Origin: Clostridiales bacterium
Lineage (GTDB): Bacteria > Bacillota > Clostridia > Christensenellales > Aristaeellaceae
Assembly: GCA_012729115.1 (NCBI GenBank)
Contig: JAAYDR010000079.1
Location: forward strand, 1 to 45,673
Direction: 5' to 3'
Length of the DNA: 45,673 bases
Positions within the stretch are counted from its first letter, which is position 1, and every line of letters starts with the position of its first letter. The translations under genes were made by a program, and so were the position numbers. Below are positions 29,114-45,673 of the stretch, piece by piece. Below the pieces are notes generated by a model. That model was not told the DNA's origin. It saw nothing but the letters and a program-made list of their open reading frames with translations, and did not search any database.

Positions 29114-30283
29114 TTATTCGTCCTCGAGCAGTGCCAGATCCGGGTCTTCCTCCAGTTCTTCCACGTCGTCGTCCTCGCTTGGGCTTATGGGCCGAACCGG
29201 GAGGGTGTCCCCGGCCTTTTTGGCTGCCATCGCCGCCAGGGCTTCGTCACGGATGATCTTGTCAATCTTTGCGGCTATCTCCGGATTGTCCTTGAGAAAC
29301 TGTCGGGCATTTTCCCGTCCCTGGCCGATGCGCTGATCCTCATAGCTGAACCATGCGCCGCTCTTGTGAATGATATCCCGGTCAACGGCCATGTCCAGCA
29401 ACGTTCCCATCTTGCTGATGCCCTCGCCGTATATGATGTCAAACTCACTCACTCTGAAGGGGGGAGCTACCTTGTTTTTAACAACCTTCACTTTGGTGCG
29501 GTTGCCAATTACTTCGGCGCCGTTTTTGAGCTGCTCTCCCCTGCGTACATCAAGCCGCACGGAGGCATAGAACTTCAGGGCCCGGCCGCCGGGTGTGGTC
29601 TCAGGGCTGCCGTACATCACGCCCACCTTCTCCCGAAGCTGGTTGATGAAAATCGCCACAGCGTTGGTTTTACTGATGACCCCCGCAAGCTTCCGCAGGG
29701 CTTGGCTCATCAGCCGGGCCTGTAGGCCAACAAAGCTGTCACCCATTTCTCCCTCAATCTCCGCTCTGGGTACAAGTGCCGCCACGGAATCGATAACCAC
29801 CATGTCCACAGCGCCGCTGCGCACCAGAGCTTCGCAGATCTCCAAAGCCTGCTCACCGGTGTCTGGCTGAGAGATATACAACTCGTCAATATTCACACCC
29901 AGTTTACGTGCATAGACGGGATCCAGGGCGTGCTCCGCGTCGATGAAGGCTGCTACGCCGCCCAAGCGCTGGGTCTCGGCAACGGCATGAAGGGCTACGG
30001 TGGTTTTACCGCTGCTCTCCGGTCCAAAAATCTCTATCACGCGGCCACGGGGGAATCCGCCCACCCCCAAGGCAATGTCCAGATCCAGGCAGCCTGTGGA
30101 GATAACCTGGAGGTTGCTATCAGCGGCGGCATCACTGAACTTCATCACCGCGCCTTTTCCATAGGTCTTGTTGAGCTGTGCCAGGGCGCTTTCCAGGGCC
30201 CTCATCTTCTCCTCGCGTATTTGGCTTTGATCTGTTCCGACTTTTTGGACAGTCTCCTTCTTGGTGGCTTCCTTCTTGGCCAT
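29114..30283 (-). CDS. recA: Recombinase RecA
   Basis: 389-residue RecA, the ATP-dependent strand-exchange protein and co-protease for LexA cleavage. Walker [14 protein letters not shown], Walker [15 protein letters not shown]-like loop L1 ([24 protein letters not shown]), L2 [30 protein letters not shown]. It has about 20 extra basic N-terminal residues and a strongly acidic tail ([13 protein letters not shown]), which in other RecA proteins tunes DNA access. The ATG has GGAAAGG upstream. It follows cinA by 31 bases in an operon with rimO, pgsA and cinA, and no separate promoter is obvious. Confidence 0.97.
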
Positions 30284-32734: not shown

Positions 32735-32773
32735 ATTTTATTGCTTGTGGAAAGAGGGTGAAACAGGTGTTCG
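32735..32773 (-). promoter_or_regulatory. Promoter with a LexA (SOS) box for the rimO-pgsA-cinA-recA operon
   Basis: On the minus strand the box CGAAC-ACCT-GTTTC (32773-32760) matches 13 of 14 positions of the Bacillus LexA consensus CGAACRNRYGTTYC. Its right end overlaps a -35 TTTCAC (32763-32758); 17 bases on is -10 TAAAAT (32740-32735). An alternative pair TTCCAC/TACAAT (32752-32747, 32730-32725) lies just inside. Either way LexA bound here would hinder polymerase. Confidence 0.6.
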
Positions 32774-41788: not shown

Positions 41789-43069
41789 ATGTCCACGCAG
41801 CCCATGAAACGACAGTATATCATGCTAAAGCCAATGGTGTTAGGGGCTAACGGGTTTGCCCGCTTGGAAATGGAGGGCGGCGGGTTGCTTCTGCAATTGA
41901 CAGGGAAGAACCTGACCGGCCATGCCCGGGGCCTTCGGGTATTTTTGTATGCAGGGGAGGGAGCCGTCCAGGAGTTGGGCGGAACCAGGGTCAATCCCCA
42001 GGGGCAGGCCACTCTGCTGGCGGAAATCGGTCCTCGCCAGGGGGGCTTCTCTCCCACCCGGCTTCAGGCTGTATTGGTGACCACAGATGACCCAAAACCG
42101 GAACCCCTTTTCATCGGGCTATGTGTGCCCCAAAGTTCGGGAAGCCTCCTGGATGCAAAAAATGCACTGCTGGCACTCTGCACTAAGCTAAAGGAAAGCC
42201 GCGCCAGGGAGGCAGCAGCCCGGAAACGGGAAGAAACAGAGGCAAAAACGGAGCAAGATTTGGGGCAAAGGATAGGCTTAAGGGAAGATATGGGCCAAGA
42301 TCCATCCATAAAATATTCCGTAGAAGATACAGCAGAAAAAACGGGAGAGCAAAACGGGGAGGATGCAAAAAGCCAAGGTGTTACACCCTCTGCCGCCAAG
42401 GCTCACTTTGCCCTCAGGGCTTCTACCGCGATGCCCAGGGAGTTCCCGCCCAAGGAGGTGTTTCTCTCCGCCATTGATCCTTCCGTTTATGTGGAAGCGG
42501 ATGTATATGCCACTCGAACACCGAAAAGAAGCGTACGAGCACAGGAAGCTGGGGACAAGATCCTGGAATCGGACGCTGTGGTGAACCTACGGAGAGTGGA
42601 CCCGCCATCCCCCAGGGAGGGGGAGGATACTGGCTTTCAGGGCGATATCGGAGACAACCACTTCCAGCCGCAAACGCATGGGGCAGGCCTGGGAGAGGTT
42701 TCCCCCCAGAATGATGCTTTCTTTCATAGGCCCCGCACCCCAGGAGCGGCACCTGTAGACCGGCTCAGGCCTGTCCGATGGCCTGCTCAGTGGCGGGAAC
42801 TCAGCCATTACTTTGACGAGTATCCTTCCTTTGCGCCCTTTGACATGCCCGGATGGCGCTTTGTGCGGGTACCCATGAAAAGGAGTGGCAGCTTTGTATT
42901 GGGTCGCATGTGTCTGGATGGCAAGGTTCAGCGGGTGATCTATGCCGTGCCGGGCCGGCGCAACCAGCCGCCCCCTAAGGAGTTTGCCCGCTATCGATGG
43001 CAGCAGGGGCGGGATGGGCAAGGCTACTGGACCCTTTGGCAGCAGGTGAAAGGCGCTGCGGGGAGTTAA
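41789..43069 (+). CDS. Clostridial protein of unknown function with charged linker
   Basis: 426 residues. The N-terminal about 110 residues form a beta-rich domain (FARLEMEGGGLLLQLTG ... LRVFLYAGEGAVQELG) of the type seen in many clostridial proteins often linked to sporulation or envelope. A long polar, Glu/Lys/Arg-rich linker follows (about 130-320). The C-terminal about 80 residues (YFDEYPSFAPFDMPGWRFVR ... RVIYAVPGR) form a second compact domain. No signal peptide or enzyme motif. ATG 41789 has GGAGG 7 bases upstream. Its last 95 bases overlap the convergent DUF4130 gene. The comparison with sporulation-linked proteins is from memory and weak. Confidence 0.68.
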   Translation: MSTQPMKRQYIMLKPMVLGANGFARLEMEGGGLLLQLTGKNLTGHARGLRVFLYAGEGAVQELGGTRVNPQGQATLLAEIGPRQGGFSPTRLQAVLVTTDDPKPEPLFIGLCVPQSSGSLLDAKNALLALCTKLKESRAREAAARKREETEAKTEQDLGQRIGLREDMGQDPSIKYSVEDTAEKTGEQNGEDAKSQGVTPSAAKAHFALRASTAMPREFPPKEVFLSAIDPSVYVEADVYATRTPKRSVRAQEAGDKILESDAVVNLRRVDPPSPREGEDTGFQGDIGDNHFQPQTHGAGLGEVSPQNDAFFHRPRTPGAAPVDRLRPVRWPAQWRELSHYFDEYPSFAPFDMPGWRFVRVPMKRSGSFVLGRMCLDGKVQRVIYAVPGRRNQPPPKEFARYRWQQGRDGQGYWTLWQQVKGAAGS

Positions 43070-43838
43070 GGGAATCCCGCATTTCCACCATGTTTTCCCA
43101 ATAACGCATGGGCAGGAGGTTTCTTCGGCAGATGGGGTTTTCCCGTTCCCGGATGGCAATGGTCTGATAAAACCGGCTCCAAAGTGCCTGGTAGAAAAGC
43201 TCTTCCTGGGAATATTGCGGTAGGTCGATGGTCTCGCAGGCCAGCAGCTCCCAGCGGCTCTGCGTGCAAAGAAGGACCACCCGATGGGTGCGATCATAAA
43301 TCAGCAAGGTTTCCTGGGAATAACGATCCATGAAATGGGGGGCCAGCCGGGGCAGGACGAAGTTCTTGGGACTGATCGTGGCCAGGAGTGTTCCTTCATG
43401 GTCGGCAAAGCGGATAAAGCCACACAGCAGATGGGCCTCCCTCAGCAGATACTTTTCCGCTTTTAGCAGCGGTGACACCAGGGGGTCCGCATAGGATTCG
43501 GCGATCTGTGGTCCCTGAGCGAAGCTCAGACGCAAAAACTGGAGCAGTGCCAGCTCTTTTTTCTCCATACAGGATAGAAATACATGTTCGCAAAGCTCCA
43601 ACGCTCTGGGGCAGACTTCCCGTATGATCGCCTCCCGGACACGCAGAGCCTGATCGCGGTTTGTAGGAATGCGGCGTGATGGCAGCAGACTCTGCTGTGC
43701 TTCCTCTTGAGGCTGAATGGCTGTGGGCATGGCATGATCATAGACGCAGGTATGGACGCAACAATAGAAGCCGGCCAGGGAGCCATCATACAGGTACACC
43801 TCGTCCCGTGGTTCCATCACAAGTTTGAAACCAGGCAT
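42975..43838 (-). CDS. TIGR03915-family DUF4130 probable DNA metabolism protein
   Basis: 287 residues. The N-terminus EVYLYDGSLAGFYCCVHTCV is the family signature. A middle section reads FLRLSFAQGPQIAESYADP, and the C-terminal half has LLCGFIRFADHEGTLLATISPKNFVLP, PHFMDRYSQETLLIYDRTH. In this family, members are always paired with a TIGR03916 radical SAM protein, and some are fused to a uracil-DNA-glycosylase-like domain (TIGR03914); here no glycosylase domain is attached. Enzyme activity is not established. The ATG at 43838 has GGAGG 7 bases upstream and overlaps the radical SAM gene by 22 bases. Its 3' end overlaps the convergent 41789 gene. Confidence 0.88.
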   Translation of the reverse strand: MPGFKLVMEPRDEVYLYDGSLAGFYCCVHTCVYDHAMPTAIQPQEEAQQSLLPSRRIPTNRDQALRVREAIIREVCPRALELCEHVFLSCMEKKELALLQFLRLSFAQGPQIAESYADPLVSPLLKAEKYLLREAHLLCGFIRFADHEGTLLATISPKNFVLPRLAPHFMDRYSQETLLIYDRTHRVVLLCTQSRWELLACETIDLPQYSQEELFYQALWSRFYQTIAIRERENPICRRNLLPMRYWENMVEMRDSLNSPQRLSPAAKGSSSLAHPAPAAIDSGQTP

Positions 43839-45142
43839 GACACCGCCTCCTCCAGTGCTTGTTCCAGCGGGGTTCCAGCTTCGATGGCCGGGATAGAAGG
43901 AGCAGGTGAAAACAGGCTAAGCTGTTCCATACCAAATTGAATGGCTTTTGGGTCCACCAAGGCACGGACCACTCTCTCCCGGCCCATAGGGGACAGGCCC
44001 GTGCTGCCGCGTACAGTAATGAAATACTGTGCCCGTTTGAGTACCACGCCCAGGCGCTTGAGCCCTTCCAGGGTGAGGGCGCAGGAGCGCCTTGCCGTAA
44101 TGATCCGCCTGGCGCTGATTGGACCGATCCCCGGCACTCTCAGCAGGACTTCGAGGGGGGCCTTGTTTACGTCCACAGGAAAAAAATCCATGTGGTTGAC
44201 AGCCCAGTTGCACTTGGGGTCCAGAAAGGGATTGAAGTTGGGTGTGTCCTTGCTGAGAATTTCCTCAGCCTGGAACTGATATTGACGCATCAAGAAGTCC
44301 GCTTGGTAAAGCCGATGTTCCCTCAGCAGCGGCGGCTTGGTGTCCAGAGCGGGCAGCAGGGTATCACTGGCGGTGGGAATATAGGCCGAGAAAAAGACCC
44401 GCTTTAAGCTGTACTTGCGGTACAGGCTCGAGGCCAAGCGCAGGATCTGGTAATCCGTCTCCGGGGAGGCACCGATGATCATTTGGGTGGACTGGCCTGC
44501 CGGAACAAAGCGTGGTGCATGGCGGTAGAGGGTCAGGGCACGCTGGTTTTCGACCATCCCCTTGGCCACCTGGTCCATGGGGGACAGGATGGCCTCCTTG
44601 GTTTTATTGGGCGCAAGTCTCATCAGGCTATCTTCACTGGGAAGTTCAATGTTGATACTCATCCGGTCTGCCAGCAGCCCCAGTTTTTCCACCAAGGCGG
44701 GAGATGCGCCGGGGATCGCCTTTGCATGGATGTAGCCGTTGAATTGGTGCTGATGGCGGAGAATCTCCAAAGCGCGGATCATTAACTCCATGGTGTGGTC
44801 CGGGGAGCCCAGCACGCCGCTGGAGAGGAACAGGCCCTCGATGTAATTGCGACGATAAAATTGGAGTGTGATTTCCGCGAGTTCCTGGGGGGTGAAGGCC
44901 GCCCTGGGCACGTCGTTGGAAACCCTGTTCACGCAATAGCGGCAGTTGTAGATGCATTGGTTGGATAACAACACCTTCAGCAAAGAGATGCATCGCCCGT
45001 CTGCAGCAAAGCTGTGACAGATGCCTGCGGCCACTGCATTTCCCAAGCCTTTGCCACCGGGTCGATCCACTCCGGAGGAGGTGCAGGCCACGTCATATTT
45101 GGCGCTATCCGCAAGCAGGGTGAGCTTTTCCATCAGATCCAC
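43817..45142 (-). CDS. TIGR03916-family radical SAM protein, putative DNA modification/repair
   Basis: 441 residues. Radical SAM cluster motif CIYNCRYC near residue 63, flanked by LLKVLLSNQ and the family-typical DVACTSSG near the N-terminus. The C-terminal region has a helix-hairpin-helix (LEVLLRVPGIGPISARRII), a DNA-binding element that fits a role on DNA. GTG 45142 has GGAGG 7 bases upstream. It precedes and overlaps the DUF4130 gene. A strong promoter with a LexA-like box lies at 45162-45209, so the pair is probably SOS-controlled. The reaction is unknown; a DNA repair or modification role is inferred by the family, the domain and the regulation. Confidence 0.92.
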   Translation of the reverse strand: MDLMEKLTLLADSAKYDVACTSSGVDRPGGKGLGNAVAAGICHSFAADGRCISLLKVLLSNQCIYNCRYCVNRVSNDVPRAAFTPQELAEITLQFYRRNYIEGLFLSSGVLGSPDHTMELMIRALEILRHQHQFNGYIHAKAIPGASPALVEKLGLLADRMSINIELPSEDSLMRLAPNKTKEAILSPMDQVAKGMVENQRALTLYRHAPRFVPAGQSTQMIIGASPETDYQILRLASSLYRKYSLKRVFFSAYIPTASDTLLPALDTKPPLLREHRLYQADFLMRQYQFQAEEILSKDTPNFNPFLDPKCNWAVNHMDFFPVDVNKAPLEVLLRVPGIGPISARRIITARRSCALTLEGLKRLGVVLKRAQYFITVRGSTGLSPMGRERVVRALVDPKAIQFGMEQLSLFSPAPSIPAIEAGTPLEQALEEAVSCLVSNL

Positions 45143-45161
45143 AGGGATACCTCCAGACGAT

Positions 45162-45209
45162 AGAACGTGTGTTCCCGTTCATTATACAGGATCTACGTTG
45201 TGATGTAAA
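45162..45209 (-). promoter_or_regulatory. SOS-type promoter of the radical SAM/DUF4130 operon
   Basis: On the minus strand TTTACA (45209-45204), 17-base spacer, perfect TATAAT (45186-45181). A palindrome over the expected start, AGAAC-GTGT-GTTCC on the plus strand (45162-45175), matches 13 of 14 positions of CGAACRNRYGTTYC, the Bacillus LexA box. Confidence 0.7.
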
Positions 45210-45268
45210 GGGCCTGTATAGGTCCGAGTTGGTGGAATGCAATTTTCAGGGAGAGATGATGCGAATAA

Positions 45269-45297
45269 GGGCTGCCACGCAGGAAGCGTGGCAGCCC
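45269..45297 (-). terminator. Hairpin after the right-edge gene
   Basis: Perfect 12-base-pair stem GGGCTGCCACGC/GCGTGGCAGCCC (45269-45280 with 45286-45297), 5-base loop. The minus-strand tail TTATTC is weakly U-rich. It probably ends the gene entering from the right. Confidence 0.6.
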
Positions 45298-45401
45298 AGT
45301 ACAGATGACAGGATGACCGATAAGCCTCAGTGCGTCTCCCACAGCCCATCCCCAGCCTCCTCCGGGAGTGCATCCGCAGGCAACCGGGAGATTCCTGTAG
45401 A

Positions 45402-45673
45402 CTAATTCCCGAAGGTATCAAAGTCCTGGGGCGTTTCTTCAAGAGAAGAATCCTGGTGCTGCCAGGCCAGGTTCCGATTCCACAGAGCCAACTGCCATTG
45501 CAAATCCTGCTGACCAAGGTCGTAACTAAATGGGACCAGTTCGCCGGAATCAAAGTTCAGCGTCATGGGCACATACAAAAGCACGGTATCTGCGCCGGAA
45601 ATATCGATGGACTGGCCTACGCCGTAAGCAGGCTCTCCAATTCTCCTTGGATCGGCTGTGGTCAGGGAACCTA
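45402..45673 (-). CDS. C-terminal 89 residues of an unidentified protein (cut by right edge)
   Basis: Open on the minus strand from the right edge to a TAG at 45402. The translation has alternating polar and hydrophobic residues (TVLLYVPMTLNFDSGELVPF) with an acidic, polar C-terminus (DSSLEETPQDFDTFGN). The fragment shows no motif that I recognise, and the start lies outside the window. Confidence 0.6.
   Translation of the reverse strand, partial: GSLTTADPRRIGEPAYGVGQSIDISGADTVLLYVPMTLNFDSGELVPFSYDLGQQDLQWQLALWNRNLAWQHQDSSLEETPQDFDTFGN

Follow-up and report, generated by a model that had tools for sequence, protein, structure and literature searches.

The TIGR03916 radical SAM gene and its TIGR03915/DUF4130 partner in this Clostridiales bacterium are, we predict with considerable confidence, controlled by LexA. 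A LexA-type box was computed over the expected transcription start of the pair, the genome carries lexA, and the same type of box is present at many orthologous promoters, all of which supports an initial annotation that placed the pair in the SOS regulon here. The probable explanation of the whole is a damage-induced, LexA-controlled, clamp-recruited module for DNA repair or DNA editing. SOS control of the pair is strongly supported by these comparisons but is not new in kind, because a COG1573-COG4277 operon, apparently the same pair, is already reported under LexA-type control in the available text of PMC8565304; our finding extends this known theme. The window is the whole stretch of DNA analyzed, 45,673 nt long, and corresponds to contig C60 of a 3.15 Mb genome in 124 contigs (95.89% complete). 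Its relevant features are as follows.

45204..45209, minus strand: -35 hexamer TTTACA of the pair's promoter (promoter search)
45181..45186, minus strand: -10 hexamer TATAAT, with a spacer of 17 bases (promoter search)
45162..45175, no strand assigned: LexA-type box with a GAAC-N4-GTTC core over the expected transcription start (consensus match, similar placing in orthologues)
43817..45142, minus strand: TIGR03916 radical SAM protein, 441 aa, GTG start (636.7 bits, cut-off 343.5)
44933..44956, minus strand: CX3CX2C radical SAM cluster motif, codons 63-70 (alignment; coordinates by arithmetic)
44087..44176, minus strand: helix-hairpin-helix, residues 323-352 (Pfam HHH_3, 25 bits, curated cut-off 27; coordinates by arithmetic)
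43910..43924, minus strand: QLSLF in the radical SAM tail, residues 407-411 of 441 (motif match)
42975..43838, minus strand: TIGR03915/DUF4130 partner of 287 aa, whose gene shares 22 bases with the radical SAM gene (208.3 bits, cut-off 112.25)
32760..32773, minus strand: box CGAACACCTGTTTC preceding rimO, which heads an apparent rimO-pgsA-cinA-recA operon (box match)
29114..30283, minus strand: recA, last gene of that operon (ORF inspection)

Gene products and the clamp-type tail

The TIGR03916 family is currently annotated merely as a putative DNA modification/repair protein, and we know of no reaction established for the TIGR03916/TIGR03915 pair. In an alignment of 27 rows, the radical SAM protein has invariant Cys residues at the cluster positions 63, 67, and 70. 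Cys 20, 42, 51, and 311 are also invariant, which suggests a second metal site. A fold search with the radical SAM core (model pLDDT 79.8, residues 14-53 unreliable) matched HydE, biotin synthase, lipoyl synthase, and viperin-like enzymes, without singling out a DNA enzyme.

The partner in the window consists of DUF4130 alone, with no UDG or UdgX domain found by Pfam or NCBIfam. A sequence search of the PDB with DUF4130 returned nothing credible (best E 1.9). Its predicted fold (pLDDT 86.9) gave weak but repeated matches to DHH-family phosphoesterases, including PAP phosphatase, RecJ, and Cdc45, with a best E of 0.001 against DHH/RecJ-like folds and a TM of at most 0.36 among the DHH-type matches; we retain this resemblance as a lead. 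The alphaproteobacterial partners differ in their domains. There, DUF4130 is fused to a UDG domain in all three proteins scanned, the one partner submitted to NCBIfam scored above the cut-off for UdgX, a family of uracil-DNA-binding proteins, and the gene beside the radical SAM gene is annotated as UdgX family in 8/8 annotated records fetched, whereas the window partner has no UDG domain. DUF4130 has previously been named a predicted mutagenesis-related enzyme (PMC3765255). The two genes had been described as always adjacent; this was the case at 55 of 57 loci, with DUF4130 located by tblastn, and failed at the other two. In L072 and L064, orthologues with a box or near-box, the downstream DUF4130 partner was not found by tblastn.

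Beyond the helix-hairpin-helix, the tail of the radical SAM protein is variable apart from QLSLF. The window tail fits the canonical beta-clamp motif QL[S/D]LF (PMC13254535) in a flexible tail, and QLSLF is termed a full consensus clamp motif (PMC4549789). Model confidence is low around this motif, with block means of 56 and 48. We aligned the tails of 56 orthologues that were not selected on the motif (L097, with a broken frame, was left out); this alignment replaced a conservation table built from motif-chosen tails, which was rejected as circular. The five motif columns hold Gln in 56, Leu in 47, Ser in 53, Leu in 42, and Phe in 52 of the 56 sequences, while the remaining columns from 385 to 429 reach 39/56 at most. 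Exact QLSLF occurs in 34/56 tails and the looser published consensus Q-aliphatic-x-[LM]-[FL] in 38/56; a pattern that also admits QMSLF and QLSFF, and is therefore wider than the published consensus, occurs in 51/57. As background, 638 long segments from six-frame translation of the orthologue loci contained 48 matches to QL[ST][LF]F, radical SAM copies counted. In alphaproteobacteria, 10/10 copies have the motif at the C-terminus or one residue off, as QLSLF, QLALF, QLTLF, or QLQLL. Based on this conservation, the radical SAM tail likely docks on the beta sliding clamp as a putative clamp-binding motif. No report of a clamp-type motif in the radical SAM tail of the pair was found in the literature searched, and "radical SAM" together with "clamp-binding" gave no match there, which does not prove that none is in print.

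These features also bear on whether an SOS-induced pair might serve something other than repair, such as modified-nucleotide synthesis, phage defense, or RNA metabolism. The lack of an established reaction, fold matches of the radical SAM core that do not single out a DNA enzyme, and the weak resemblance of DUF4130 to DHH-family phosphoesterases would all suit such a role. However, the helix-hairpin-helix, the clamp-type motif, the UDG fusion, and the polymerase genes that neighbor the pair in relatives point to DNA, and we consider a non-repair function unlikely.

The box and the SOS genes of the source genome

The minus-strand promoter TTTACA-17-TATAAT has 11/12 consensus letters and is the sole promoter found in 45000-45500 (shuffles mean 0.3). 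Read on the minus strand, the box is GGAACACACGTTCT (45175-45162). It starts 5 bases downstream of the -10 hexamer and therefore overlies the expected start site. Against CGAACRNRYGTTYC, the box matches at 13/14 positions on the plus strand and 12/14 on the minus strand. We thus recovered both the arrangement first described, TTTACA-17-TATAAT with GAAC-N4-GTTC at 45162-45175 over the start, and the claimed 13/14 match to the Bacillus LexA consensus, the same figure being obtained with CGAACRNRYGTTYC on the plus strand.

The letters of the box carry less weight than its position. The pattern GAACNNNNGTTC occurs once in the 45,673-nt window against 0.55 expected, and at least once in 42 of 100 shuffled windows. 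On a matrix made from the lexA promoters of relatives the box scores 7.9 bits, below the training-site minimum of 13.0, and shuffled windows average 3.35 sites that reach 7.9 bits. The matrix was trained on hand-picked lexA-promoter sites that already matched RAAC-N4-GTTY, and lexA loci without such a site were dropped. Neither the shuffles nor the relatives' matrix gave significance, which ruled out the letters by themselves as proof. The place of the box over a near-consensus promoter is harder to attribute to coincidence: across the whole genome, GAACNNNNGTTC is found at 24 places, compared with 55 for the pattern read backwards. By arithmetic from this genome-wide count, the chance of a match in a given 60 bp is about 0.0005, a figure uncorrected for the many promoters inspected. 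The case rests on the position of the box and on its conservation; the letters alone are weak evidence.

A canonical lexA is present on contig C6 (TIGR00498, 224.7 bits, cut-off 110.95), so the SOS reading is not refuted by absence of the repressor gene. The promoter of this lexA has CAAACTCCTGTTCG between its -35 and -10 hexamers. On the relatives' matrix this site scores 9.3 bits and the recA-operon box CGAACACCTGTTTC scores 10.0 bits, both closer to the 7.9 of the pair's box than to the training minimum. Within the recA operon, rimO was identified by NCBIfam, and pgsA, cinA, and recA were named from ORF inspection. A Y-family polymerase gene in the same genome has GAACATATGTTC right behind TATACT, 164 bases upstream of the gene start. 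The uvrB locus was searched for RAAC-N4-GTTY and none was found. The picture at the genome's SOS genes is mixed, with a box of this form at lexA, rimO-recA, and one Y-family polymerase gene but none at uvrB. A matrix built from the genome's own lexA, recA, and uvrB promoters had been suggested as a check; boxes were available at lexA and rimO-recA, but with uvrB boxless the remaining sites were too few.

Perfect GAAC-N4-GTTC boxes also stand before other genes of this genome. Three of these, at L019 2449-2460, L031 2526-2537, and L032 2494-2505 (contigs C61, C27, and C37), may at a guess belong to mobile elements, putatively under LexA; the L019 and L031 products begin alike, and L032 has a sigma-70-region-4-like gene. 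At L027 2486-2497 (C118), a perfect box precedes an mraZ-like gene by 153 bp, and a gene for a penicillin-binding protein follows at a greater distance, a possible case of damage control of cell division. Another at L036 2512-2523 (C56) is near a recombinase gene and a 204-aa ORF with no family match. At L037 2535-2546 (C57), GAACAAGTGTTC lies within a longer palindrome before genes for a heavy-metal-associated protein and a metal P-type ATPase. This site is perhaps the operator of another repressor, which is a caution about the core motif. The genome also encodes a second S24-domain protein (L003, C116:7064-7423), with 74.6 bits on the lexA model, below its cut-off.

Wiring and probable transfer of the pair among relatives

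We compared 57 upstream regions, comprising the window, 6 of the 7 other carrier genomes, and 50 of 52 further loci; L045 and L093 (no 5' end) and L065 (a near-copy of L064) were left out. RAAC-N4-GTTY occurs within 150 bp upstream of 22/57 orthologues and the reversed pattern upstream of 1/57, while 300 shuffles of these regions gave a mean of 0.78 boxes and a maximum of 4. Two more orthologues, L040 and L064, have a one-mismatch box outside this count. Several orthologues repeat the window layout, with a -10-like hexamer followed by the box. Among control genes in the same loci, 14/188 have a box within 150 bp and 1/188 the reversed pattern; by our reading, 10 of those 14 are the pair's shared intergenic box or belong to polymerase or recA-operon promoters.

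In 12/57 loci the pair follows a gene for a Y-family polymerase (10/10 scanned have Pfam IMS, the other two were identified by tblastn), and in 10 of these 12 a box is found upstream of the polymerase gene, in several cases between a TTGAC-like -35 and TATAAT. The exceptions are L078, with a one-mismatch variant, and L091, with no box. A short ORF separates the polymerase gene from the pair in L073 and L074, as does 0.7 kb in L086. The type of box that had been singled out at the window promoter is found directly at 22 of the 57 promoters and at 10 more loci upstream of the linked polymerase gene. A similarly placed box stands before the pair in L039, the sole other carrier among 19 same-family genomes. 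The 16 same-genus genomes are without the gene and so allow no box comparison within the genus.

The box also follows the presence of the repressor. Counted either directly before the pair or ahead of the polymerase gene linked to it, the strict box is found in 27/31 lexA-positive versus 1/19 lexA-negative genomes (50 searched, 31 over the cut-off; Fisher p = 7e-9, indicative since the genomes are related and not independent). L046, L055, L064, and L078 have lexA without a strict box, L046 and L055 having an S24 gene, and L081 has a box with no lexA match found.

A third arrangement places an XRE-S24 LexA-like repressor gene beside the pair. It occurs in 15/57 loci, 13 with the gene upstream (Pfam confirmed 9/13, the rest from tblastn) and two with it divergent (L059 and L060). 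These copies are mostly in lexA-less Oscillospiraceae, 13 of the 15 being in genomes without canonical lexA. The S24-wired orthologues are boxless, and LexA control of the pair is not universal. An alignment of 14 of these S24 proteins (the 13 upstream plus L059) shows the Ala-Gly cleavage site intact, together with the Ser and Lys residues found in self-cleaving repressors. A phosphatase gene lies between the S24 gene and the pair in L049, L051, L052, and L085, and in some relatives the S24 gene is 1.1-1.7 kb upstream of the pair. Exact TACAAC-N5-GTTGTA is present in 8/13 upstream S24 promoters, the Gemmiger-type ones being without the exact form. In all five genomes searched this exact operator is present, with a single copy in three of them, two copies in another, and four in the last, and the reversed pattern had no match; we rejected it as the site of a global regulator, as the exact pattern is too scarce and looks local. 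The core ACAAC-N5-GTTGT has one copy in the source genome, on contig C76, and is absent from the window. No S24 gene was found in the 531 bases between the start codon of the pair and the contig end, and one may lie beyond that end. S24 wiring of the radical SAM/DUF4130 pair was not found reported in the literature searched. None of the three kinds of wiring was seen in 6/57 loci (L043, L044, L054, L075, L084, and L097), of which L084 has just 156 bases upstream.

The radical SAM gene is absent from 16/16 other same-genus genomes and present in 1/19 others of the family. In the tree, from which L097 was left out, the window protein belongs to an 18-member clade (support 100/99) made up of 13 S24-wired, 3 box, and 2 unassigned members. 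Its clade-mates L072 and L080 have a similarly placed box, and the family relative L039 is elsewhere in the tree, away from this clade. Wiring labels require 8 changes on the tree compared with 27.5 when shuffled, with L040 and L064 labelled as box on their one-mismatch sites. The pair was probably acquired horizontally in the source genome. Given the placement of L039 and the sparseness of the gene in genus and family, the window pair and the L039 pair were probably acquired separately, both ending under LexA-type boxes. The neighbor gene at 41789-43069 is matched in each of the 17 genus genomes, the window's own included, and no radical SAM protein was detected by tblastn in the stretches around it from 10 relatives. 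A clean empty site could not be defined because the other neighbors differ among these relatives. At L047 3352-3948, an S24 gene with the radical SAM pair was observed in the spirochaete Brucepastera parasyntrophica, within an otherwise Bacillota clade; judged by the tree, this placement is a transfer across phyla.

Beyond Clostridia, we read 14 copies of the 158 matching plasmid records, in a sample spread over genera. All 10 alphaproteobacterial plasmid copies have GAACN7GAAC or GTTCN7GTTC within 50 bp upstream, and the reversed patterns are found in 0/10; the LexA motif of Alphaproteobacteria is given as GTTC-N7-GTTC (PMC8565304). The Cupriavidus copy, the sole betaproteobacterium, has CTGTN8ACAG upstream, and the E. 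coli LexA motif is given as CTGT-N8-ACAG (PMC4234289). The Lachnospira copy has two clostridial boxes and the Subdoligranulum copy one AAACACGTGTTT, and none of the motifs tried was found upstream of the Gemmatirosa copy. In a phage collection, the radical SAM gene was seen in 10/50,697 records; two of them, each of 240 kb, bear the name Acinetobacter phage MD-2021a.

We weighed these results against a chance palindrome, with the pair on an ordinary promoter here and SOS control confined to other lineages. The presence of GAACNNNNGTTC in 42/100 shuffled windows, the low score of 7.9 bits on the relatives' matrix, a probable horizontal acquisition (0/16 same-genus carriers), and a place in a clade of the protein tree where 13 of 18 members are S24-wired all lean that way. 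Against it, the box overlies the start site, a similar box is found both elsewhere in the tree (L039) and in the clade (L072 and L080), the genome's own lexA and recA-operon boxes score likewise low on the same matrix, and perfect sites are fewer across the genome than matches to the reversed pattern (24 versus 55). Coincidence is an unlikely account, and LexA control of the pair is the reading we retain. That the palindrome instead serves a different repressor of ArsR/CadC or XRE type is very improbable: operators of ArsR/CadC can resemble the GAAC-N4-GTTC palindrome, GAACAAGTGTTC before the L037 metal-transport genes indicates that this core is not confined to LexA sites, the pair in clade-mates is wired to an XRE-S24 repressor, and the genome has its own second S24-domain protein, but the S24 operator is a different palindrome whose core copy is on C76 and not in the window, the C116 protein is just 26-31% identical to the pair-linked S24 group, the longer flanking symmetry of L037 is missing at the pair's box, and the strict box tracks canonical lexA across genomes.

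Known systems and a proposed role

We take COG4277 to be the TIGR03916 family, which appears to fit the helix-hairpin-helix and the UDG-fused partner. The COG1573-COG4277 pair is described as an operon putatively for base excision repair that LexA-type repression governs in Bacteroidetes, and Verrucomicrobia and Alphaproteobacteria are also cited for its SOS control (PMC8565304). The window pair resembles the Bacteroidetes operon as a two-gene damage-response operon, which there comprises a UDG-family protein and COG4277. It differs in its partner, a DUF4130 protein that lacks a UDG domain, and in its box, which is of Firmicutes type. The available text of PMC8565304 on COG1573-COG4277 makes no mention of a clamp motif or of a repressor private to the pair.

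The LexA boxes of Firmicutes are given as GAAC-N4-GTTC in B. subtilis and mostly GAAC-N4-GTTT in C. difficile (PMC4234289). The pair's box is like those of the Firmicutes LexA regulon in form and in its placing over or near a promoter. In the available main text on the C. difficile regulon (PMC4234289), the pair is not named and the word "radical" has no match. HdiR-type and non-canonical S24 SOS repressors are described in PMC8565304. The relatives' repressors are similar in their XRE helix-turn-helix, self-cleaving S24 domain, and mostly lexA-less genomes; unlike the HdiR type, the S24 gene adjoins the radical SAM pair and the exact operator occurs just once in 3/5 genomes. Spore photoproduct lyase, SplB, is likewise a radical SAM protein tied to SOS and DNA (PMC3765255, PMC8565304). 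SplB is, however, COG1533 in the available text of PMC8565304, and the window radical SAM protein returned no SplB family from Pfam or NCBIfam.

We infer the following course of events. In undamaged cells, LexA bound over the start site would block transcription. RecA filaments on damaged DNA would trigger LexA self-cleavage, and both overlapping genes would then be transcribed together. The radical SAM protein would bind DNA via its helix-hairpin-helix, and its QLSLF tail on the beta sliding clamp would bring it to damaged or newly copied DNA. There its radical reaction may be directed at a damaged base, in all likelihood a pyrimidine, with DUF4130 recognizing or holding the substrate or product.

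A broader and more tentative possibility, which we hold at less than even confidence, is that the pair is a clamp-tethered radical SAM DNA-repair system of its own kind, portable and adopting the damage switch of its host. An oxygen-sensitive, clamp-delivered enzyme would then reverse or rewrite a pyrimidine lesion and pass it on to DUF4130/UdgX, and the switch adopted would be LexA, the operon of a polymerase, or an S24 repressor private to the pair. If borne out, the S24 wiring would add to the cases in which damage control has evolved anew without LexA. The different damage switches per lineage, together with the clamp-type tail, sharpen a vague annotation into questions of whether the tail binds DnaN and which lesion is acted on. 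If a lesion chemistry is found, it would be a repair chemistry suited to anaerobes, including many gut bacteria.
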